From: Coprinopsis marcescibilis
Taxonomy: Eukaryota > Basidiomycota > Agaricomycetes > Agaricales > Psathyrellaceae
Length of the DNA: 64,000 bases
Assembly: GCA_004369085.1 (NCBI GenBank)
Contig: ML210232.1
Location: forward strand, 1 to 64,000
Direction: 5' to 3'
Positions 336 to 36,702 of this stretch are shown here, piece after piece. The notes beneath the pieces are model-generated. The model saw only the letters and a program-made list of their open reading frames with translations. It was not told the DNA's origin and searched no databases. Within the stretch, counting starts at the first letter, position 1. Every line of letters begins with the position of its first letter. The translations under genes were made by a program, and so were the position numbers.

Positions 336-2652
336 ATGATGGTAAGCCAATTAATCTCTTGAACTTTTGATACATGCCTAATCTCGAACGTGAGCAGGCT
401 GGGTCTTCTGGAATCAGTCATGCAGCACTGTTAGAAGGAGCCAGGGACCTAACCATTCGTGATGGGGTTTTTGTTGCAGTTGGACGGGACCAGATCAACA
501 ATTATGCAGTTAACGGTATGAAACCTCCTCCGTACACCGTCTCTGTTCAGCTTCTGAAAGCCAGTCTGGTGATGTAGGCGGTACACCGCTAGAGAAGCTC
601 CTTGCGCAATGTGTCATTGAAGCAACGCACGAGTCAGAAACCGCTGCGTACGCCCCGCGCTGCAAAGCTGGTACAAGACGAGAAATCCTCAGGGATATGA
701 GGTCTTGGCTGACATGCGCTTCTAACGACCGTTTGCCCGTTCTGACACTTCTCTGGCTCTCAGGGCCCGCGGGTGGACGCAAAAGCTGTATTCAGAGAGA
801 GCTGGTTGAGATCTGCAAGGAGAAAGAAGTTCTGGCGGCATCGTACTTCTTCTCAACGCGCGTGGAGAACCTCGACAGTGCGCGCCCATTTGTTGCAACG
901 CTCGCCATCCAGCTTTGTGGGTGCATCCCTGGATACAAACCTCTTGTCAAGGAGGAGATCCTCAATGACGTTTCCCTCTTTGAGAAATCGATGGAGGTTC
1001 AGTTCGAGAGGCTGATTTCAGTCCCACTGCAACGTATCAACTCCGCCAGTCCACATCCAGCCGAACCCATTACGACACCTTACACTCAACCTCTCCTGTC
1101 CAAGCCCCAGTCTTCCAGCGAAGAGGCACCACCAAGCGATTGGAACGAAGGGCGGACAAAGTCGCATCCTTTAAAGCGCAGTTTGACATCCACGTTAGGA
1201 TTGTCGACTCTGCTCCGTCTACTCCCTCGGGCCAAGGTACGCATTCTCGCAAACTGATGTGTGTCTATCTCATTGAGCTGGTTGTCTAGCCACAAGCAAT
1301 AGAACAGAAGGGTCTCCAGCCCGTGGATTCTGCCAAAGTCACGGCAGACCTTCTCTCACAGATCGACAAGATTAACTGCCTTCCACCGCACGCGGATTCC
1401 GGTTCTGCGACATCCGCTTCCAAGCCAGAGCTCCGAAACTATCACCCCCAAGATAATTATCATCGACGGTCTGGACGAGTGTCGAAACGCAAAAGACCGA
1501 GTTCGTATTATTCTGCTTTTAGCCTCTGCGCTGGCCAAGGCTACGTTCCCTTTCCGTATTGCCTTAGCCAGCAGACCAGAGTTCGACATTCGTTCGACAT
1601 TCGAAGATGAGGAAATCGAGGCCATAACCTATCGGATAATGCTGGAATCGTATGGATGCGACACCGACATCGAGAGCTATCTCATCGAAACAATATTGGA
1701 GATACGAAAGAAACACCCGTCTTCGGCGTCGATTCCACGGGACTGGCCTTCTCAAGAAGACATCCAGAAGGTTGTCCGGAAGTCATCCGGGCAGTTTATA
1801 TACGCTTCGACATTTCTCACCTTTATCGACAACCCCCGGCGAAACCTGGTAGAAATGTTTGATCTGGCTGTGAACTTTGTTCAGACCCCTTCGACCACCT
1901 TGAACCCATTTGCCACACTGGATGCGCTCTACACCTGCATACTGGATGCGGCAGACGCAGATATCAGCCTGCTGAAGCGTTTGCTGCATGCCATGGTAGA
2001 CATGGCCTCAACGGGGACAATCACAACGGATGCCATGTTGGATGAATCATTTGTGCTACCCCGAGGTACCACCGCGACAACCTTTTGCGACCTTCACTCC
2101 ATCATCCGCATCTCAGCACCCCATGCTTCGATCAACAACATCTCTTTTCATCACAAAAGCATTGAAGACTACCTGTTAAGCCCACAGCGGTCAGGAAAAT
2201 ATCATCAAAAAGTGGTTGAAACCAATCGGGATATCTTCGATCGCTGCATTGATTGTCTTTCTCCATGGGCAGACAAGACTCGATTATGCTGGAACGTCCC
2301 CTCATATATTTTTGCGGTAGACTACGCATCCAGGCGCTGGCATCTACACGCTGGTGTCTTGCTCAGTCAAACTTTTCCAGAACCAATGACCTCAGACGCT
2401 GTCGCCTCCCTTCCAACAGCAACAATGGTTTACAGGCATTGGTGTGGTGACCGTGAGGCGAGGTTATCGTTTCTCTATGGACCATACTGCTCCTTAGCAG
2501 ATAAAGTGCACGCCGAATTGGTGGGTCGAGATCTCTTTACAAACATTTGGTATCTGTCTGACCTTTATCATGGGTGGTATGTTGCAGTGTTCCCAGAATG
2601 GGGGCGGTCGCTGTCCATATTTCAAATCTGGACGTATGTACACTTCAATTAA
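336..2652 (+). pseudogene. NACHT (NLR-like) ATPase, probably decayed copy
   Basis: This is a STAND/NACHT ATPase of the mushroom NLR-like type, about 90% similar by eye to the intact gene at 11620-14030. Exons are 336-341 (ATGATG immediately followed by gtaagc), 398-515, 578-1236 and 1290-2652; an alternative ATG lies at 374. The N-terminal motif LTIRDGVFVAVGRD is shared with the paralogues. The P-loop reads GPAGGRKSC where the paralogues have GPAGGGKSC, so the Gly just before the catalytic Lys is Arg. Relative to the paralogue 8 nt are missing near 1424, shifting the frame just before Walker B (IIIIDGLDEC, near 1453-1482), which otherwise remains open to 2652. Using a TAG acceptor at 1300-1302 instead of 1287-1289 would restore the frame, so a functional product cannot be excluded. 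No C-terminal repeat domain is present. Confidence 0.75.
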
Positions 2653-9693: not shown

Positions 9694-11386
<1,693 letters not shown>

Positions 11387-11619: not shown

Positions 11620-14030
11620 TCATTGCGCAGCGTCCAGGTATCGTCCTATATAGTCCTTGGTAGAAATGGCAAGGAAGTTGGAGTCGTAAATTGCCAAACT
11701 CCTCGCCACATCGCAGACACGGTAAAGTTCCTTACAAAGCGGCACACAGTCGTTGGGTTTAATGGTGAAGCACTGGAATGTATCATTGACATAGAGGTCA
11801 GATAGATGCCAAAAGGCTCTAAAGAAAGCTCGACGAACCAATTCGGCGTGCAGTTGATCTCGAAACAGAGCGCATTCTCCAATTGATGGCATTGGGGAGG
11901 GATATAAATGGCGGTAGATCATGGTTGCCATTGGAAGAGAAACGAGAGCGTCAGTGGTCAGGAAATCCACGCCCCCATTTATGAACAGGGATTTTGCATA
12001 TGCGAGCCAATGTCGTGAGGCATATTCTGTCGCCAATGGAGGGTGTGATGTCACCTTCCTGTAGGTGCGCGCAAGTTCCGCCCACGGAGAAAGATGGTTG
12101 ATGCAGAACCCGAGTATCTCCTTGTTGGACACCAATGGAGCACGATGATATTGTCCCGAACGCAACGGATCCAACAAATAGTCTTCAAGGCTTTTGTGGT
12201 GAAAACGGATCAAAGATTGCTGGGGTTTCTTCAGTGGTATGATGTGTATGAGGGAATGAAGGTCGCAAAAGGCTGTGGCCGTGGTTCCTGGAGTGAGTCC
12301 AAAGAACTCATCCAAAAGAGTCGTCGTGATCTTGGTTTTCTTTTCCCCCAAGGCATTCATGGTTATCACCCCATGTAACAAACGCTTTAGCAGGCTGATA
12401 TCCACGTCCGCCGCATCCAATATGCAGGTGTAGAGCGCATCCAGGGTGGTAAATGGGTTCACGGTGGTCGAAGAGGTCTGAAGAAAGTTCACGGCCAGAT
12501 CAAACATTTCCACAAGGTTTCGCCGGGGGTTGTCGATGAATGTGAGGAATGTTGAAGCGTATATAAATTGCCCTGACGACTTCCCTACAACCTTCTGGAT
12601 GTCTTTGCGAGAAGGCCAATCGCATGGGATTGACGCCGAAGACGGGTGTTTCATTCGTATCTCGAAAATAGTGTCGATGAGAAAGCTCTCAATGTCGGTG
12701 TCACTGCCGTCACGGTAGTCTTCCAGCTTGATCCGGTAGGTTGTGGCCCGGATTCCATTGTCCTCGAATGTCGAACGAATATCGAACTCTGGCCTGCTGG
12801 CTATGGCAATACGGAAAGGGAACGTAGCATTGGCCAGCGCAGAGGCTAAAAGCCGAATGATACGAACTCGATCTTTTGCGTTTCGACACTCGTCCAGACC
12901 GTCGATGATAATTACCTTGCGGGTTATCGTTTTGGAGCTCTGGTTCGTGGGCTTGGAAGCGAATGTTGCAAAACCAGAATCCGCGTGCGGTGGATGGCAG
13001 TTGATCTTGTCGATCTGTGAGAGAAGGTCTGCGGTGACTTTCGCAGAATCCACGGGCTGGGGAGCCTTCTCTTTCGTCGCATGTGGCTAGACAAGCAATC
13101 AAATGAGAGATATACACGCATCATTTCTGAGAATGCGTACCTTGACCCGATGGAGTAGACGGAGCAGAGCCGACATTCCTAACGTGGACGTCACACTGCG
13201 CTTTTCAGGACGTGACTTTGTCCGCCCCTTGTTCCAATCGTTTGGCGGTGCCTCTTTGCTGGAAGACTGGGGCTTGGACAGGAGAGGTTGCGTGTAAGGT
13301 GTCGTAATGGGTTCGGCTGGTCGTGGACAGGCGGAACTAATGCGTTGCAGTGGGACTGAAATCAGCCTCTCAAACTGAACCTCCATCGATTTCTCAAAGA
13401 GGGAAACGTCATTGAGGATCTCCTCCTCGACAAGCGGTTTGAATCCAGGGATGCACCCGCAAAGCTGGATGGCGAGCGTTGCAACAAATGGGCGCGCACT
13501 GTCGAGCTTCTCCACGCGCGTTGAGAAGAAGTACGAGGCCGCCAGAACTCCTTCCTCCTTGCAGATCTCAACCAGCTCTCTCTGAATACAGCTTTTGCCT
13601 CCACCCGCGGGCCCTGAGAGCCAGAGGAGTGTCAGAGTGGCCAAACGGTCGTTAGCACCGCATGCCCGCCATGACCTCATATCCTTGAGGATTTCTCGTC
13701 GTGTACCGGCTTTGCAACGCGGGGCGTACGCAGCGGTTTCCGAGTCGTGCGTTGCTTCAATGGCACAGTGTGCAAGGAGCTTTTCCAGCGGTGTGCCACC
13801 TACAAACACCAGTGTTCAGATTTTGTCCGAATACGTCTCTAGAGCTGGCTCGTACCGCTAGGTGCATTATTGTTAAAAATTTGATCCCGTCCTACTGCAG
13901 TGAACACCCCATCACGAATGACCAGGTCTTTGGCTCCTTCCAACACCCCTGTGGTAGTTGCAGAGCGTTCCTTCCGCTTACGAACCCAAATTAGATAGCA
14001 TTCCACCAGGGAAGAGCATTGACTTACCAT
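11620..14030 (-). CDS. NACHT-domain NLR-like ATPase (intact)
   Basis: This is a STAND ATPase of the mushroom NLR-like family. The start ATG (14028-14030) is directly followed by a gtaagt intron that resumes at CGGAAGGAACGC. The next exon carries the motif LVIRDGVFTAVGRD and ends at 13856. The exon 13799-13141 contains HCAIEATHDSETAAYAPRC, Walker A LSGPAGGGKSCIQ and FFSTRVEKLDSARPFVA. The exon from 13086 to the TAG at 11620 contains Walker B KVIIIDGLDECRNA, IASRPEFDIRST, SGQFIYASTFLTFIDNPRR and FHHKSLEDYLL. There is no C-terminal WD40, ankyrin or TPR array, so this is a short NLR-like form of about 750 residues. It is an inverted near-duplicate of the decayed copy at 336-2652. In this class NACHT oligomerisation triggers an N-terminal effector; no recognisable effector is visible here beyond the short motif. 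Confidence 0.88.
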
Positions 14031-14455
14031 TGTCTTACAACAGAAGTCTAAGTCGACCAGGTAAACCGTAAAAGAGGTGTACCGTGTGCAGGTTCGTTGC
14101 TACCGTGACGGTTGGATTGCTGTTAAATCGCTTTAGTTCGGCCTCGTGCGTGAGAACATGTTGGTTTTCCCTACAGGCCATACCTATACTTGGGGTTCTC
14201 AGCGTTCATAATACGAGCTATACACAAGTTGCAAGGTGCCTCAAAGGCCCCGAAAAGACAGCTTTACTGCTTGCTTGCTCATTGAATGGCTGGTTCTTGG
14301 CCGCTGTATCTCGAGGCTGTTAACCTTCAGATTCATATCAAGTCGGGCATGACTACCATTACTCACGTTGTATATTTAGCCCTGCATTGGGAGAAACCTT
14401 TTTGCGTGGAGGTTGATGGAAGTGGTTGAATTGACCCCGAATCATCATTTGGGAA

Positions 14456-14498
14456 AGATAAGATCTGATAAGATCCAAATTATCTTATCTGATATCCG
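14456..14498. repeat. GATAAG cluster with perfect inverted repeat
   Basis: Two GATAAG motifs are followed by CTTATC. GATAAGAT and ATCTTATC form an 8-bp perfect inverted repeat around a 7-nt spacer. It lies about 430 nt upstream of the intact NACHT gene start and may be a GATA-factor site cluster. Confidence 0.45.
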
Positions 14499-14673
14499 AT
14501 CGAGCACAACCAGATCCTCGAGTCAAATATCCACAGTGGACTGATACGTAGAACACATATATCACAGCGTAGCTACACCTCAGTCCTCACCAAAACGAAC
14601 CGCGAAAAATCAGGAACCTGACTCGCAATACAAGATGCCAAACGACATTGTACTAACGAGATTATACAAGTGT

Positions 14674-17600
14674 TCAAATCCCATAATGCACGAAGGGAAC
14701 CCATCTTGCAAACGATTTCCCTTGTCTCCGCAGTTCCTGCACTCCAAGGTGCAGTCCAAATGCTGCATCAGTCGAGTCTGGTGGAGCTTCGGTCCCATTG
14801 CGGAAAAGATGTCGATAAAATACATCCGTCACAATCGGTGCATCTCCTTCTTGCATCGACCTGAGATACATCAAAGTTAGCCACTACGATCCATTGAAGT
14901 GCAATCTCTTAGGCTCACCACATAGTACCCACAACACCTCTAAATCCCGCAAACATCATCATATCCACAATGGACACATCCGCCCCCTCATCCGTCCCTA
15001 CCGCCGTCTGACCCGCGCTAAGATACGCAAGCGCCCTGTTTGAAGCCTGACATTGGTTAATAATCCTTTCCATAGTCAGACCTTTTTCGCCCAACAAACG
15101 ACTCTGCAACGGACTTGACGGGTGGTGCAAGCTATGACACGCAAAATGAACAAAAGTCGCCAACTTCAAGCCATGAGCGATGGTATCAACAACGCCTGCT
15201 GGGCTATTTCGCGTAACAACATGTTTGACGAGGTTGTTCGCACTCGGAACTCGAGCTTCTATACTTCTCAGCTCATGTCTTGTCTCTGGAAGAGGCTCCG
15301 CCTGATGTCTGTCGCCGTCCGGCTCTATGATCGCAACAAGCTTGAAGTCGAAAGTCGGCTGCGGAGGCGAATATAACAGGTCCCGAGGAGAATGACAGTA
15401 GGAGGATACGGCAAAGTCGAGTATGCACAGAGCGTCCGACTCCACGCTCTCCTTTGGGTATATTCCCGCCGCATGGAATGGAAGTGATAGAAAGTGGCCA
15501 GTCGGGCACCACCAAATTCTCTTGGGGCAATCTGTCTAAATGATAACCGTGTTAAATGAATAGTCCGTCACCAAAAGTTGGAAGTATCATACTTTTTCGA
15601 GCTGAAGAGCTTCAACGACGGGACCAACTACCCCAACCCACAGCGTCGCTAGGATGGCTCTGAACCCGTCATTCGTCGTTCGGCGCCCTGAATCTCTATG
15701 TCCGAGTATATCTCCACCCAAGGCTTCCTCGATCTCACAAATGAGCTTAGAAGAAGCCCTCTTCTCCTTCGTTACCGTTATCTGTTGGAAAGCTGCCTTC
15801 AACGTCCGAAGGAGTGTGATACTCACACTCGGGAGAGGAAGGTTAAGAAATCCCAGTTCCGGTCGCATGATAACGGCGTTGCACCCCCGCTCATTCGCGT
15901 TAAGCAGCACCACAGGATACTTCAGCTTAGCCGATGTGAGTGAGCTACACGGAAGTGGAAGAAAGACCGGAAACGTCTCCACCGGCGCCGGCGCTTCCAA
16001 ATTCTGGCCAAACGGCCGCTCCCAATGCTGCGAAAAGCCCTGAGCTGTCCCGCCATGCGTCTCCTGGGCCGATACGGGCGTCAAGTCCTGATACATCATG
16101 AGTCGAGTGACCGAACTGAGATACCTCAATATCGTACGCAGCGGTCGAGAAAGCGGTGGGCTGACGATACTGAGTAGGTCTCCCTGAGAGCCAAGGCGGA
16201 GAGCCTGAGTCCATGCGATCGAGCGGGCCATAGACAAGAAAACTGCAGCAGCCCCGAGGTCATTGTCTTCAATGGCGCAACGGACGGCATTGCTCGAAAG
16301 CTCCGTGGATCGCGCAAAGCTGTTTCGCTGAGATGAGCTGAGGTTGCGGGATGCTAGCCACGGGAGGAGACCGATGGCATGAGAGTAGATCTTCAGGCCA
16401 ACCTTGGCTTCAAGGGGAGTCCCTCGAACATGATTGAGTAGTTTCAGGGCATGCGCCGGCCAAGATGACGTAGAATATGACTGTGCATGGCGCGGAACAA
16501 TATAGCGGGTACGTACACTCAGATTCGAGCGAACGTGGTGTGTACAGAGCTCGAGGATGTCTTCGTACGTTTCGGAAAGTGGTTGGTAGAACTTCCCCGA
16601 GCGCTCAGGCGACCATAGATAGTCCTCCAGCGTCTTGTGGTGAAATCGAATAGAAGAGGAGTGGGACTCGGGATGGGGGATGTGAATGATAGAGTGTAGA
16701 TCGCAGAAAGTCGTATCAGCTGTCCCAGGGTTGAGGTCGTAGAAATCGTCTAGGAATGCAGTGGTGATGGTGTGGTCCGAAGTCCCGCCGTCCGGACTTG
16801 TTGATAGCATAGCCGTGAGCCCATGAAGCAAGCGCTTTAACAGTACATGATCAGCCTCCGCAGACTCTAATATCATTGTGTAGAGCGCGTCCAGGGGTGT
16901 AAATGGGTTGACCGCGCTCGGCCCCATCTGGTGGTAATTGACAGCTAGCGCAAAAAGCTCCACCAGGCTTCGTCGGGGGTTATTGACGAATGTGATAAGA
17001 GTCGAGGCGTAGATGAACTGTCCTGATGCTTTTTCGACGACTTTTTGTATATCTTCTTTGGAAGGCCAGCTGGGAGGAATCTTCGATGCCGACGGGTGCT
17101 TCGAACGAATGTCGAAGAGTGCGTCAATCAAATAGTCTTCAATGTCCGTGTCGCAGCCATAGTCCTCCAACCTGATATGCTTGGTCACCGCCTTCACCAC
17201 CTTGTCGTCGAAAGTGGACCGTATGTCGTACTCTGGTCGACTCGCCATGATGACCACGAACGGTAGACCATTCTTCGTCAACACTTCGGCGAACAGACGA
17301 ATAATTCGAATCTGTTCCTTTGAGCTACGGCACTCATCCAGGCCATCGATCACAATGACCTGTCTGTGGGGAGCTTGCACATCTTGAGACGCGGAGGACT
17401 TCTGCTTCGAAAATATCAGCTTGATCTTCTTCCTGAACTTGCTCCGTCGTCCATTGGCGGAAGCCACCTTCTCCTTCTCCAATCGGTTCAGCGGCCGACA
17501 TACGAGCCTCTCGAATTGGTGTTCGAGAGATTTATCAAAGATGTTGGAATCCGCCCGTATTTCATCCTCGACGAAGGCTTGGAGGCCTGGAATGACGCTG

Positions 17601-18160
17601 CATAGTTGATTGGAGATGGTGGAAGCGAGGGGACGGCAGGTGTCGAGGTCGGGAACGCGGGTGGAGAAGAAGTACGATGCTGCCAAGGTGCCTTGTTGCC
17701 GACAGCGATCGATCACCTCTCTCTGGATGCAGGTCTTTCCTCCACCCGCAGGGCCGGAGAGCCAAGCCATTAAAGGGAGGTTGTCCGCGTTCTCCGTAGG
17801 GTAGCACGTCGATGCAGTCCACGACATGATGTCTCCCAAGATCTCCCGCCGAGTACCCTCTTTGCACCGCGGAGCATACGCCGAGGTTTCGGACTGATGT
17901 GTCGCCTCGACTGCACAATGCTTTCCAAGCAAAGCCATGGGGCTCACTGGTATGTTATTAGCAACTCAATTAGTGACAGTGCCAAACGGTGCTGCGATAA
18001 ACTTACACGGTGCATTTCCGAGGCTGTAGGCTCCTCCAACGTTGCCTATGTTCGTGATAATGTGGAGGTCTCGTCCTGCGGCATTTAACTGGGCGTTGGG
18101 CAGTGTAACATTGCTGGAATTCTGCAGTATGTTTCCACCTGTGCATGTCGTCGTTAACAA
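14674..18160 (-). CDS. NACHT-CHAT fusion protein (NLR-like, pseudo-protease CHAT)
   Basis: One spliced gene joins a NACHT ATPase to a C-terminal CHAT (caspase-like) domain. The N-terminal exon (to 18007) has VTLPNAQLNAAGRDLH. The exon 17946-about 15590 carries HCAVEATHQSETSAYAPRC, Walker A LSGPAGGGKTCIQ, Walker B VIVIDGLDECRSS and FHHKTLEDYLW. It then has the linker typical of TPR-CHAT proteins (IYSHAIGLLPWLA, AAAVFLSMARSIAWTQALRL) and the CHAT start PVVLLNANERGCNAVIM. Following exons give IWWCPTGHFLSLPFHAAG, FVHFACHSLHH and FAGFRGVVGTMW, then SMQEGDAPIVTDVFY to RWVPFVHYG. The catalytic His of VHFACH is present, but the expected SACQTA reads SAGQTA (Gly codon 15011-15013), so cysteine protease activity is unlikely. 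The start codon is unresolved: no in-frame ATG is visible, and a short upstream exon with ATG near 18160 is probable. Confidence 0.87.
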
Positions 18161-19971
18161 GGCATACTAGGAAACATCTGAACAAACCGACCAGTGTCGG
18201 TTCTCAAACCCGAAGGAGGAGATAACCCCTCTAGATCTCTTCTTGGAGAGATCATAAAAGTTGTTAGCTGCTAGACTGAGGAGAAAGGCTCCTATGAGAG
18301 GTAACTGTCACTCTGGAGTGTGGAGGAAGAAGCTGGTGGAGGTCGAAAGGGAGTGGGGATATTATCCTGTTTTCTAGGTGAGAAACACAGCTTGATAAGG
18401 GTTTATATGATCAAGAAGAAGCCGGGAGCTCATGGCAAAGCTCAGCGGGGAGAGAACAAAGACGACACGCCAATTATCCGCGCGAAGGGCGACTGCTGTG
18501 TAAATTGCACACCGTGAGATGGCACAATGACATGTGGGTGAGCTACCGCAGCATGCCCATTCAAGGAACCGGGCGGCTGTTTGTCAATCTTAGCTCTTCT
18601 CTATAGAATGAGAAGTGGAAAAGGAGCCGTGAAAAACTTCTTCCAGTTCCGAACTGGGCGGAGATTGTTACGTCTGTCTGGGCGCTGCTCGAGTTCGTCT
18701 TTGCCAAAGGAAGGACATATTAAACTTTGAAGCAGCAGGCCTTTGCAACGGATGTTAGTCAATCACGTCAGGAAGGACCCATCGTGTTGGAGCTCCAAAC
18801 ATGATATCGAGCGATAAGGTGTGAGCGGAGAATGCAGAATTTTATTACCTTTCTTTTGCATTAGCCTGAGGACAGTCTCCTATATTACTAAGCCTTTTTG
18901 ATGGGTAGGCGACACGACCAGTGAAGTTCGGCTTCACCGCGTGGCACCAGCCTGCCCTCAACGCTGTGCAAGTTTCTGAAGGGAGTTTTTTGCACTTACA
19001 AAGTTATTATTAGGAAAATACATTTAAAAAGGCGCACTGTATAAGTACTCCAAACATTCAGATCTGTGTTCGATGTGCAGCATTGGAAGTTCGAAGAGAA
19101 CTGTTCGATTTTGTTCTTGATCTCCGAGTCAACTTGATCTTTTCTTTTTTAATCCTAAGTACATTCAGGCCTCAGGGAAGGACTGCATTCGACCTTGCCC
19201 GCTAAGGTCCCTTCCACCTCCATATTACTAATCTGAACATGGTTTTTGAAGGTTTCCAAATCTCCCCAAATAAAATGACCCCTGTCGAATCCTTTCAACC
19301 ACTTAATGAAAGTTGTCCTGCAGGTCTTAAACTAAACTCAAACTTTGGTTGGTTGGACTGATATTTTTATGTCGAGACGAGCGGCGGGGTTCTCATCTTC
19401 GCCGCTTCCTTTCACTTTCCAAGCTCCATGTCCTCGAGTTAGTTTTGATTACTGACCGTCAAAAACTGAGCAAGGATTTGAGCGCTAGAGCAAGGGTCGC
19501 TTAGTCGCAGAACGCGGCCCCTGGTTTACATATCCAAACGTATAGTTTGGTCTTGTGCCACACTGTTTGGTTGAAGACCAACCCTCGAAATAAAGGGCTT
19601 GGCACGAACCTACCTTGAAGTTATTGATTTTGGTTTTATACAGCAAAAGCAAGGTTTCCTAGGGTAGCTTTCGGCGGCAGCTTCATAGATAAGATAAGAT
19701 AAGATAAGATACGGCTCCGATCGGTGTACAAGTTTAAGAGACTCGAGAGCGCATAGCCCAATCTCCAGCCAACTCCCGAGTGGACCATTTACGTTCCCGA
19801 TAAGCTGGTCCTCCTGGTATTACCTTGGGAGGCAACACTATGGCCATCGTGACCTATACTCGAGTACCTTGCTAGCATCAACCCATTCAAAAGTATCTCA
19901 GAGACATCAATAAATTGGCAACGATACTTCTATCAATACATTTCACATATTCTACTCCTCCACAAGACACA
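18161..19971. other. 1.8 kb intergenic region
   Basis: This lies between the 5' end of the NACHT-CHAT gene and the 3' end of the MTAP gene, both on the minus strand. I see no coding segment with support. It contains the GATAA microsatellite at 19688-19711. The unresolved first exon of the NACHT-CHAT gene may lie in its first 200 nt. Confidence 0.45.
19688..19711. repeat. (GATAA)n microsatellite
   Basis: Five consecutive GATAA units end in GATAC. The array could act as a GATA-factor binding cluster or be a neutral microsatellite. Confidence 0.6.
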
Positions 19972-21162
19972 TCACTGCGTCTTACTGAAATACTCGGGCA
20001 GGATGAACGCGAGCTTCTTAAAGTCCTCCGGGTTCTGCTGAGGCGAAGTAGGCATGATGCTAAACTTCATGGTACCCTTCTCCTGCAACAAAGCCTCCGC
20101 AACCGCAACCGCCTCTCCCTCTCCCTTGGCCTGGATGTGCAAATGGTGCTTGTGAAGGGTAAGGTGCAAGTCATCCAAGATGCTCGACAGCACAAGCTTC
20201 GCAGCCGACCCATTGTCATGCAGCGTCTGCACAACATCATGCGCAGTAACAGCATCCGACTGGGGTCTCCACGAATCATAGTCCGTAGCCATCGCAATCA
20301 GCGCGTACCTATAATCCACAGCCGTTAGTTAGCTCAAATCGAATCTACGATACCACACCGAAAACGCACGAGATCTCCGCCTCCCTAGCCAACTTGGATT
20401 CCGGCAGCACGCTCATGTTGATGAGATCCGCACCCCACTGGCGGTACATGATACTCTCCGCCCTCGTCGAGAACTGGGGGCCCTCCATGCAGATGATAGT
20501 CTTATCCGTAAACAGCTTCCTACCCTTCCCCTCCTCCTCCAGCACCTTCCGCACCCGGGGCTCCAGCCACGCAATCAGCTTGTTGCTGAAGGGGTCGCCG
20601 AACATGGCGTGCGCGACGACCGAGGTCTCGGTGAAGAACGACGGGTCGCGGATGCCCTTGGTGCGGTCGATGACCTGCGACGGGAGCACGAAGGAGCCTG
20701 GGGAGACCTCCTCGCGCAGGGAGCCCACGGCGCTGAAGGAGACTATGGCGGTTACGCCAATAGACTTGAGCGCCGCGATGTTGGCCGTTCCTGGGACGCG
20801 CGAAGGTGGAATAACGTGGCCGATTCCATGGCGGGCAATGAATGCGACCTTGGTGCCCGATGGAAGAGCCGCGATGGTAATAGGCGAGCTCGGGTAACCC
20901 CAGGGCTATTATTTCCAAGATCAACAAACGGTGCTAGAGCAATAGGAGCGAACATACAGTCTCAGGGTTCACGGTTTTGCTAAAAGCCCATTAGAACGTT
21001 ACGCAATACAAAGGTGATGCAAAGCGTACATGATGGTCAAATTGTCAAGCTGGTAGAGCCCGCTTCCGCCAATCACCCCAATCAAAACTGACAATCTGTC
21101 AGCCAACAACGAACATCACAGCACAGAACCTGACCAAATAACTTACCACCTTCTTCAGACAT
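19972..21162 (-). CDS. MTAP: S-methyl-5'-thioadenosine phosphorylase
   Basis: The enzyme phosphorolyses methylthioadenosine, a by-product of polyamine synthesis, to adenine and methylthioribose-1-phosphate in the methionine salvage pathway (yeast Meu1). The start [17 protein letters not shown] is split by an intron after ATGTCTGAAGAAGGTG. Further motifs are [35 protein letters not shown], the substrate-site stretch [29 protein letters not shown] and [13 protein letters not shown]. The C-terminal end is [10 protein letters not shown] with TGA at 19972-19974. Length and order fit the family. A TATTTAAGG-like element lies about 105 nt upstream of the ATG on the same strand. Five or more short introns are consistent with fungal homologues. 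Confidence 0.94.
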
Positions 21163-34886: not shown

Positions 34887-36702
34887 TTAACAATCTAAAT
34901 ATCTCACCACACGATGATGGACTTTAGTGTGAAACGCATCTTGTCGCCTGAGAGGGTTTACTGGCTCTCGGCTTGATCCTTTCGGTCTGCACGACCAGGC
35001 AGCTTCGGGTAACATGGCGAATTTTTGCGAAGCCAAGACGCTCCCCACGCCATGATCAACCAAGAGGCTGGCATAAGTAGTCCAAAAGCGAGCAGCGTAC
35101 AAAGCTTCTGCTGTCGGAGAGTGATTTGAAGCGTATGTGGGGTTAGACCACGGGAGAAGATGGTGACAACAAAGTTCCAACAACCCTTTGTCTGTTTTGT
35201 AAATTGGCTGCCAGAATTTGGGAGATCGTGCCTCCGATAGGATATAGTCTTCCAAACTCTTGTGGTGGAGCCAGATAGACTCCCTTGGATGGAGGGAGGG
35301 TGGAGGGATGTGAATGAGGGAGTGGAGGTCACAGAAAGTCGTTTCTGTTGTGCCTAGCCCAAGGTTGTAAAACTTGTCCAAAAATTGGGTCGAGATGACT
35401 TGTGTTTCCAGGAGTGGAGACATATCGGCGAATTGTACAGACGTCATAACAATCAGGCCGTGGAGAAGACGTCTGAGTAAGGCAGGATCTGCGTCAACAG
35501 ACTCCAGGATCACAGAGTACAGTGCGTCCAGGGTGGCAAAAGGATTTATAGCGCTCGATGTGATGAGAGGATAATTCACGGCCAACGTGAAGGTTTCCGT
35601 GAGATTACGATGGGGGTTCTTGACGAAAGTTAGGAACGTCGATGCATAGATGAACTGGCCAGATGCCTTTTCTACCACCTTCTTTACATCTGCTTTGGAT
35701 GGCCAGTCTGCTGGGATGTTGGCAGCGGAAGGATGTTTCGCGCGGATTTCGAAGAGGCTGTCGATGAGGTAGTCCTCAATGTCCGTGTCGCAGCCATAGT
35801 CTTCCAGTTTGATGTGGTAGGTAACTTTCTTGACCTGGTTGTCTTCGTATGTCGAGCGAATGTCGTACTCTGGGCGACTTGCGATAGCAACCCTGAGTGG
35901 CAGTTTGATTTTGGACGACGCGCGAGCGAGCAAGCGTATGAGGCGAACTTGTTCTTCTGGCTTGCGACATTCATCGAGACCGTCGATGATGACAAGGTCC
36001 GGGTTCTTTGATGGGGCGGCTTTGTGGGAGAAAAAGCAGCGTATTCTCCTCCACAGTCGAAGGCGATACCTCCTCTCAGCTGCCTCTTGTTCCGTGGCCA
36101 AACAACTGAATGGACGCGCAATTAATCTCTCGAATTGGACTTCGAGGGACTTTTCGAAGAGAGATGGATCGAACTGAATTTCTTGCTCGATATGTGGTTT
36201 CAGGGCAGGTATGGATGTGCAGAGTTGATATGCGATGGTTGCGACGAATGGGCCTGCGTGGTCGAGCCCAGGTACCCGAGTTGAGAAGAAGTAGGAGGCT
36301 GCCAGGATGCCCCTTTCTTCGCATCGCTGGACCACATCACGTTGGATGCATGTCTTTCCCCCGCCCGCTGGACCAGCGAGCCAGAGCATTGAAAGATGTG
36401 CTGTTTCATCAACAACACCAGTCGTCCACCCCATAATGTCTTCTAGTACCGTCATTCTGGTCCCTTGTTTGCAGCGTGGGGCATACGCGGCGGTTTCAGA
36501 TTCGTGGGTAGCTTGAAAGGCACAGTGTCTTCGAAGCGTATCCATTGGGGTTTCTAGAACGCGATAATGAGTCTGGCTGTGATCGAGGATAAATTGCAAG
36601 AATACCTTGGGCGTAGTTAATATTCGTTGTGGTGTTAAAATCGCGCCCCACACTCACCACATTTGAGTCATGGAGTGTGACGTGTTGAGCGCCGTCAAAC
36701 AT
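34887..36702 (-). CDS. NACHT-domain NLR-like ATPase
   Basis: This two-exon STAND ATPase is of the same class as the genes at 11620 and 14674. Exon 1 (36606-36702) encodes MFDGAQHVTLHDSNVVSVG then RDFNTTTNINYAQ, the shared N-terminal motif. After a 52-nt intron exon 2 begins TPMDTLRRHCAFQATHESE. Key motifs are Walker A LAGPAGGGKTCIQ, FFSTRVPGLDHAGPFVA, Walker B LVIIDGLDECRKPEEQ, IASRPEYDIRSTYED, SGQFIYASTFLTFVKNP and LHHKSLEDYIL. It stops at 34887 with no recognisable C-terminal sensor repeats, giving a protein of about 615 residues. The P-loop and Walker B are intact, so ATP binding is expected. An additional 5' exon upstream of 36702 is possible because an AG acceptor lies just before the ATG. 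Confidence 0.88.

Follow-up and report, generated by a model that had tools for sequence, protein, structure and literature searches.

A predicted NACHT-CHAT fusion gene with a cysteine-less C-terminal CHAT domain in Coprinopsis marcescibilis

Introduction

Fungal NLRs with a CHAT domain have been described, and in these accounts CHAT is the N-terminal module (PMC9815663, PMC12881547); some fungal CHAT genes are reported to adjoin gasdermin genes (PMC9815663, PMC10197012, PMC12881547). Non-canonical domains at the C-terminus of fungal NLRs, chiefly kinases, are proposed as integrated decoys (PMC12258605), and many agaricomycete NLRs are reported to bear N-terminal amyloid-like motifs, one group of which ends in G[DN] and includes three hydrophobic residues (Wojciechowski et al., PMC9815663). 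Here we analyse a predicted gene of the agaricomycete Coprinopsis marcescibilis, located in a 64,000-nucleotide stretch (contig ML210232.1, positions 1 to 64,000, assembly GCA_004369085.1; hereafter the window), in which a NACHT domain is followed by a CHAT domain with glycine at the catalytic cysteine position. As judged from titles and the starts of abstracts, the open-access papers searched describe no NACHT protein whose CHAT is C-terminal or inactive. We tentatively read the predicted product as an NLR-like switch in which a dead CHAT may have become the sensor.

Structure of the fused gene

The gene model is a spliced reading of the minus strand of one assembly, with splicing and expression predicted. 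It runs from 18255 to 14674 through five exons and 1117 stop-free codons (Table 1), and its introns of 53, 60, 57 and 58 nucleotides are all bordered by GT-AG. A preceding sequence-only reading had joined NACHT and CHAT in a single spliced gene, and the model bears this out: Pfam finds NPHP3_N (3e-20), NACHT (1.7e-8) and CHAT (1.2e-16) on the one protein, each over its curated cut-off, the CHAT profile (PF12770) matching at 61.5 bits against a cut-off of 24. The NACHT and the pre-CHAT part share a stop-to-stop frame of 792 codons, with no stop at the join, and the fused gene model is sound. The 5' end had been put too far downstream, at 18160, which reads TTG, has no in-frame ATG and falls inside the proposed intron 1; the start codon is likely the ATG at 18255. 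From there the N-terminus reads MISPRRDL...GGNILQNSSNVTLPNAQLNAAGRD and by eye resembles those of annotated sister NACHT proteins (e.g. P0122, P0130).

Like NLR/STAND proteins, the product has a NACHT carrying both Walker A and Walker B, followed in exon 3 by a part that we take to be winged-helix-like. The C-terminal superstructure-forming repeats that also mark such proteins were not found on it (Pfam, E <= 0.1), nor was a TPR family (Pfam). As a candidate effector or signalling module, the N-terminus offers just a short motif similar to that of the sisters; a pattern for this motif, composed only after viewing the sequences, occurs in 10 of 12 sister-clade proteins and in 24 of the 120 proteins listed, a figure that includes at least one chance match.

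Active site of the CHAT half

The CHAT half begins behind a linker shared with TPR-CHAT proteins, and the motif WWCPTG stands at 15514-15497 (minus strand). When the CHAT chain of a Craspase structure is aligned to the fused gene, the match is weak (E 0.027), but it pairs the His here with a His and the Gly with a Cys. The replacement of Cys by Gly with retention of His, already noted in the sequence-only reading, stands: the codon at 15011-15013 is GGT, whereas most relatives as well as the Craspase alignment show Cys there. One of the two catalytic residues of an active CHAT is thus present and the other is not. It had also been proposed that this CHAT should not cut, and the behaviour of Craspase TPR-CHAT, in which C627A or C627S abolished activity (PMC9729208), points the same way. 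Judged from its residues, the CHAT of the fused gene very probably lacks cutting activity.

An AlphaFold model of exon 4 (predicted local distance difference test, pLDDT, 75; predicted template modelling score, pTM, 0.76; 38 sequences) has a caspase-like fold. Its best Foldseek match is Craspase TPR-CHAT (E 1.2e-5; template modelling score, TM, 0.44 by query length), which also makes up the first six matches, followed by SAVED-CHAT; the seven matches with E <= 0.001 are all CHAT, and weaker ones (E > 0.003) are a metacaspase and caspases intermixed with unrelated glycosidases. The model, which leaves out exon 5 and was built from an alignment including Cys-bearing relatives, supports but does not prove that the fold is kept.

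Among 166 relatives (the best 120 of 163 matches and 46 new ones from a third search), the Cys site holds Cys in 158, a gap in three and another residue in five (P0068, N; P0114, G; P0242, S; P0256, R; P0258, F). In the same genome, 49 distinct CHAT loci were fetched, of which 46 were readable (L077, L078 and L079 were not; L080 repeats L029); 45 of these have Cys, including one with internal stops (C226), and one has Tyr (C186). Cys-bearing paralogues, whose existence had been raised as a question, are therefore numerous. The idea that Cys loss is unique to the fused gene was dropped: Cys-less CHATs recur (5/166 relatives and C186), and losing the Cys is not peculiar to the NACHT-CHAT gene.

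Three of the Cys-less proteins deserve separate mention. The gene at C186:32897-33499 (minus strand; L070 and L081) is a TPR-CHAT with His replaced by Pro and Cys by Tyr, with open frames (TPR exon 1310 codons, CHAT exon 210 codons) and no match to the NACHT queries; on its sequence it is likely a second pseudo-CHAT. P0068 of Lactarius tabidus begins with a Goodbye domain, which Pfam calls a fungal STAND N-terminal domain, and has at its C-terminus a CHAT with Asn for Cys and Ser for His, and is possibly an independent STAND-related pseudo-CHAT. P0258 (FA15DRAFT_648667) is an annotated C. marcescibilis TPR-CHAT with Phe for Cys; no fully identical copy turned up in the assembly, which may lack its contig.

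Constraint and rate in the CHAT half

The Cys is not the sole odd residue. Forty-eight columns are invariant in the 17 closest own-genome CHATs, and the fused gene keeps 38 and breaks 10 of them (sister residue, exon 4 position, residue here: G107V, L120A, G132A, G135S, L149G, S150E, C175G, D181T, L189I, A191D); when each of the 17 sisters is left out in turn it breaks 0-3, with a few all-gap columns counted in the denominators. Four of the ten are widely conserved in the 158 Cys-bearing relatives (C175 in 158, L189 in 150, A191 in 145, G135 in 140), where Ile189, a mild change, occurs in six, Ser135, which adjoins the catalytic His, in one and Asp191 in none. A PDE segment after the Cys, found in 16 of 17 sisters, is absent here, the segment being two residues shorter; its Glu is nearly invariant in the wider alignment. 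We considered a broadly wrecked catalytic half and rejected it, since six of the ten columns vary among the Cys-bearing relatives and L189I is mild, which leaves C175G, G135S, A191D and the PDE segment. These make a moderate but not an overwhelming case that the active site is wrecked.

Other parts are well kept. All 18 sister-invariant columns in the N-terminal half of exon 4 are retained, as is the conserved C-terminus, and the frame is open; the ten broken columns cluster in the remainder of that exon (hypergeometric 0.0046, with the cut chosen post hoc). The end branch of the fused gene in the CHAT tree is 0.94, against 0.04-0.71 for the other Coprinopsis rows of its group except P0014 (1.68), short branches there being partly due to close sisters; its NACHT end branch of 0.52 lies inside its group's 0.04-0.73. 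Tajima comparisons of the CHAT half (17 sisters by 3 outgroups, non-independent) gave the fused gene more private changes in 51 of 51, with p < 0.05 in 16, whereas for the NACHT half p < 0.05 was reached in 3 of 36, the fused gene being the slower in each. Judged by these sequence comparisons, the CHAT half looks accelerated and the NACHT half does not.

Neutral simulations, made without indels, compared two levels of replacement: at about 19%, 541-codon frames stayed open in 0.5% of cases and the 262-codon CHAT exons in 9%, and at about 4% these shares were 34% and 55%. Only after long drift of the CHAT half, whose duration the data do not fix, would its open frame speak for retention.

Origin of the fusion

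A 205-residue query spanning the join gave 46 own-genome matches. Those on the NACHT side stop at or before residue 110 except for two (120 and 132), those on the CHAT side begin at 95-109, and the fused gene alone covers both sides, which places the join near protein residue 580, at about window position 16405. Because no other of the 46 spans the join, this is the sole NACHT-CHAT fusion that the genome was found to contain; the own-genome NACHT and CHAT match lists are lower bounds. By eye and among the matches listed, one other spot has NACHT and CHAT matches close together: at C101:73445-77056 (L028), a TPR-CHAT copy with an in-frame stop lies directly before a same-strand NACHT gene. It was rejected as a second NACHT-CHAT gene, since the stop-bearing TPR-CHAT copy is followed by a stop and then a separate NACHT frame; these are two neighbouring genes.

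In a NACHT tree of 22 sequences, the fused gene stands among 13 C. marcescibilis rows (branch support 100/100), and by Pfam list none of the other 12 has a CHAT. A CHAT tree of 38 sequences places it with Coprinopsis rows, 22 in all (99/95), and gives it no nearest relative with good support. On these trees the fusion is best read as lineage-specific: in the C. marcescibilis lineage, the tail of a short NACHT protein would have been swapped, within an exon, for the C-terminal half of a TPR-CHAT, and the acquired CHAT half would have come without the TPR array. By Pfam lists, the NACHT and CHAT combination was found in 0 of 120 (best 120 of 163), 0 of 120 (best 120 of 411) and 0 of 47 relatives in searches limited to about 607-1930, 607-1930 and 304-966 residues, respectively, with only the candidates sharing most words scored, and these searches do not prove that other fungi lack a fusion orthologue.

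Genomic neighbourhood

Three sister NACHT genes share the window with the fused gene (Table 1), and further NACHT matches near 90, 106 and 116 kilobases on the same contig make this a NACHT cluster. Exons of a TIP49 (RuvB-like helicase) gene at 9831-11147 and of a phosphorylase-superfamily gene at 20345-20905, both on the minus strand, lie between the NACHT genes. No second CHAT match was present on the contig among the matches listed. A suspected inverted repeat near 14450-14500 was discarded after a repeat search gave no pair, and an NCBIfam scan returned nothing useful.

Table 1. Features of the fused gene and sister NACHT genes in the window (positions in window numbering)
Feature	Position	Strand	Remark
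Exon 1	18192..18255	-	Proposed ATG 18255-18253; splice model, inferred
Exon 2	18007..18138	-	Bears short N-terminal motif; splice model
N-terminal motif NSSNVTLPNAQLNAAGRD	18068..18121	-	Resembles motif of sister NACHT proteins
Exon 3	15593..17946	-	NACHT, presumed winged-helix-like part, junction, pre-CHAT linker; one open frame
Walker A GPAGGGKT	17732..17755	-	Spliced reading
Walker B VIVIDGLDEC	17330..17359	-	Spliced reading
Junction of NACHT-family and TPR-CHAT-family homology	16390..16435	-	Ends and starts of own-genome matches
TPR-CHAT linker ARSIAWTQALRL	16193..16228	-	Spliced reading and TPR-CHAT alignment
Exon 4	14919..15535	-	CHAT catalytic part; Pfam CHAT 1.2e-16; model resembles Craspase TPR-CHAT
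Catalytic His, kept	15134..15136	-	Spliced reading; Craspase alignment
Gly codon GGT at catalytic Cys position	15011..15013	-	One assembly
Exon 5	14674..14860	-	CHAT C-terminus, ending FARWVPFVHYGI and stop
Sister NACHT gene P0126 (FA15DRAFT_671115)	11623..13976	-	Neighbour; no CHAT in Pfam list; 93-94% to window
Sister NACHT gene P0121 (FA15DRAFT_671123)	34908..36702	-	No CHAT; 100% identity
Sister NACHT gene P0133 (FA15DRAFT_706020)	577..2649	+	No CHAT; 99-100% in pieces

Possible functions

We tentatively favour, without calling it probable, a reading by homology and analogy in which this lineage-born fusion is an NLR-like switch with the dead CHAT as its sensor, most likely a decoy or bait. 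If translated, the short N-terminal motif would be the output, the NACHT the nucleotide switch and the C-terminal CHAT the sensing module, most likely as decoy or bait for a binder of active CHAT proteases; such a CHAT would have lost its nucleophile and a few other widely conserved residues, yet kept its frame, its C-terminal tail and the conserved first half of the domain. Because the CHAT lacks its Cys, the protein is more likely to sense or bind than to cut, and because that CHAT sits at the C-terminal position, where NLRs sense ligands, a sensor or decoy is favoured. The scaffold, decoy or inhibitor roles put forward in the sequence-only reading are likewise conjectural. The narrower version, an NLR-type receptor that would guard active CHAT proteases by means of a decoy copy, its sensor being a dead caspase-like protease, is by analogy a doubtful proposition. 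If expressed, the gene would be a natural case in which a caspase-like domain had left the output end of an NLR-type switch for its sensing end and lost catalysis, and it would allow integrated decoys to be tested in basidiomycetes on a concrete example; it would also suggest that fungal CHAT proteases are themselves targets of antagonists.

Several observations weigh against this sensor or decoy reading. Columns 107, 120, 132, 149, 150 and 181, although invariant in the sisters, vary among the 158 Cys-bearing relatives, in which the residue of the fused gene is even common at 132 (114/158), 149 (45/158) and 181 (54/158), and these six columns therefore say little on activity loss; for that reason we give the sensor or decoy, its narrower version included, somewhat less weight, and decay somewhat more, than the count of ten would suggest. 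Faster evolution of the CHAT half fits decay too. The fusion is known from a single genome, with no orthologue among the relatives listed, and the length-limited searches showed no annotated protein for it. P0114, P0242, P0256 and P0258 lack the Cys yet have no NACHT in their Pfam lists, and C186 lacks the Cys too; the sequence-only reading had implied that Cys loss is part of a NACHT-CHAT story, but it also occurs in CHATs without NACHT. Lastly, the N-terminal motif ends in GRD rather than the published G[DN]; the resemblance is partial, the pattern was composed post hoc, and the likeness to amyloid-like motifs is a lead only.

The main rival is a decaying chimera, a chance fusion whose CHAT part, weakly selected or not at all, is bound to disappear, which we regard as a serious possibility although not a probable one. 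The solitary occurrence of the fusion and the unseen product, just noted, would be expected of it, as would the excess of private CHAT changes in every Tajima comparison, and other own-genome CHAT matches carry internal stops (e.g. C226 and C85:65714), some of which may be introns. Against it stand the 1117 open codons with GT-AG borders, the kept C-terminus and the 38 of 48 sister-invariant columns retained, whereas the bearing of the neutral simulations depends on divergence, open frames being seldom left at the higher level of replacement and often at the lower.

cFLIP provides a parallel for a further alternative, a dead-CHAT regulator of active CHAT proteases. The CHAT of the fused gene would pair with a Cys-bearing TPR-CHAT of its own genome and inhibit or activate it under NACHT control. 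Partners exist, given the 45 Cys-bearing loci, and C186, whose frames are long and open although both catalytic residues are replaced, suggests that a dead CHAT can be maintained in this genome; the contig, however, shows no second CHAT match among those listed, and we consider such a regulator unlikely, if less so than the remaining alternatives.

An active protease, in which the Gly would stem from faulty sequencing or assembly or from strain variation, or another residue would serve as nucleophile, is highly improbable: the Gly codon is one base from Cys in one assembly and most other broken columns vary in Cys-bearing relatives, but Cys-bearing relatives or sisters seldom or never show G135S beside the His, A191D or a missing PDE segment, and the Craspase mutants described above were inactive. 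Two separate genes, or a transcript ending before the CHAT exons, would account for the annotated fused protein not being found, but with the join near 16405 inside one open exon of the 792-codon frame this is just as improbable.

Comparison with known systems

Short C. marcescibilis proteins with a NACHT (NPHP3_N) domain (P0121-P0131 and P0133) share that domain with the fused gene, at 47-55% identity over the listed alignments, and 10 of the 12 also share the N-terminal motif; they have no CHAT in their Pfam lists, and five tails compared, out of seven, end without one. Coprinopsis TPR-CHATs (P0001-P0008) share 41-43% identity from about residue 568 (1103-residue numbering) to the end, with the same linker and C-terminus; unlike them, the fusion protein shows no TPR family in Pfam, has a NACHT in front and has its catalytic Cys replaced. 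Craspase TPR-CHAT (Csx29) shares by prediction the fold and the position of the His, but is bacterial, has an active Cys and is RNA-activated (PMC9729208), whereas the fusion protein is Cys-less.

The putative integrated-decoy NLRs of Sordariales also carry an extra non-canonical domain C-terminally on a NACHT protein, at the sensor position, where the fusion protein has its CHAT; theirs are kinase, zinc-finger and SPRY domains, and CHAT has no occurrence in the main text of that study (PMC12258605). 

No gasdermin was found in the whole genome (PF04598, E <= 1) by an intron-blind search with a model whose reach for fungal gasdermins is not shown. Clave et al. reportedly linked fungal CHAT-NLRs to gasdermins in 2022. 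A contracted CHAT-NLR gasdermin pathway would have the protease as N-terminal module, and here the CHAT is C-terminal. Fungal CHAT-NLRs and the fusion protein have in common an NLR module and a CHAT on one chain. The inflammasome-like layout suggested by the sequence-only reading is not supported, since described CHAT-NLRs have CHAT at the N-terminus as effector (PMC9815663, PMC12881547), whereas the CHAT of the fused gene is C-terminal, in sensor position. Its C-terminal, Cys-less CHAT reverses the architecture of CHAT-NLRs, in which CHAT is the N-terminal module.

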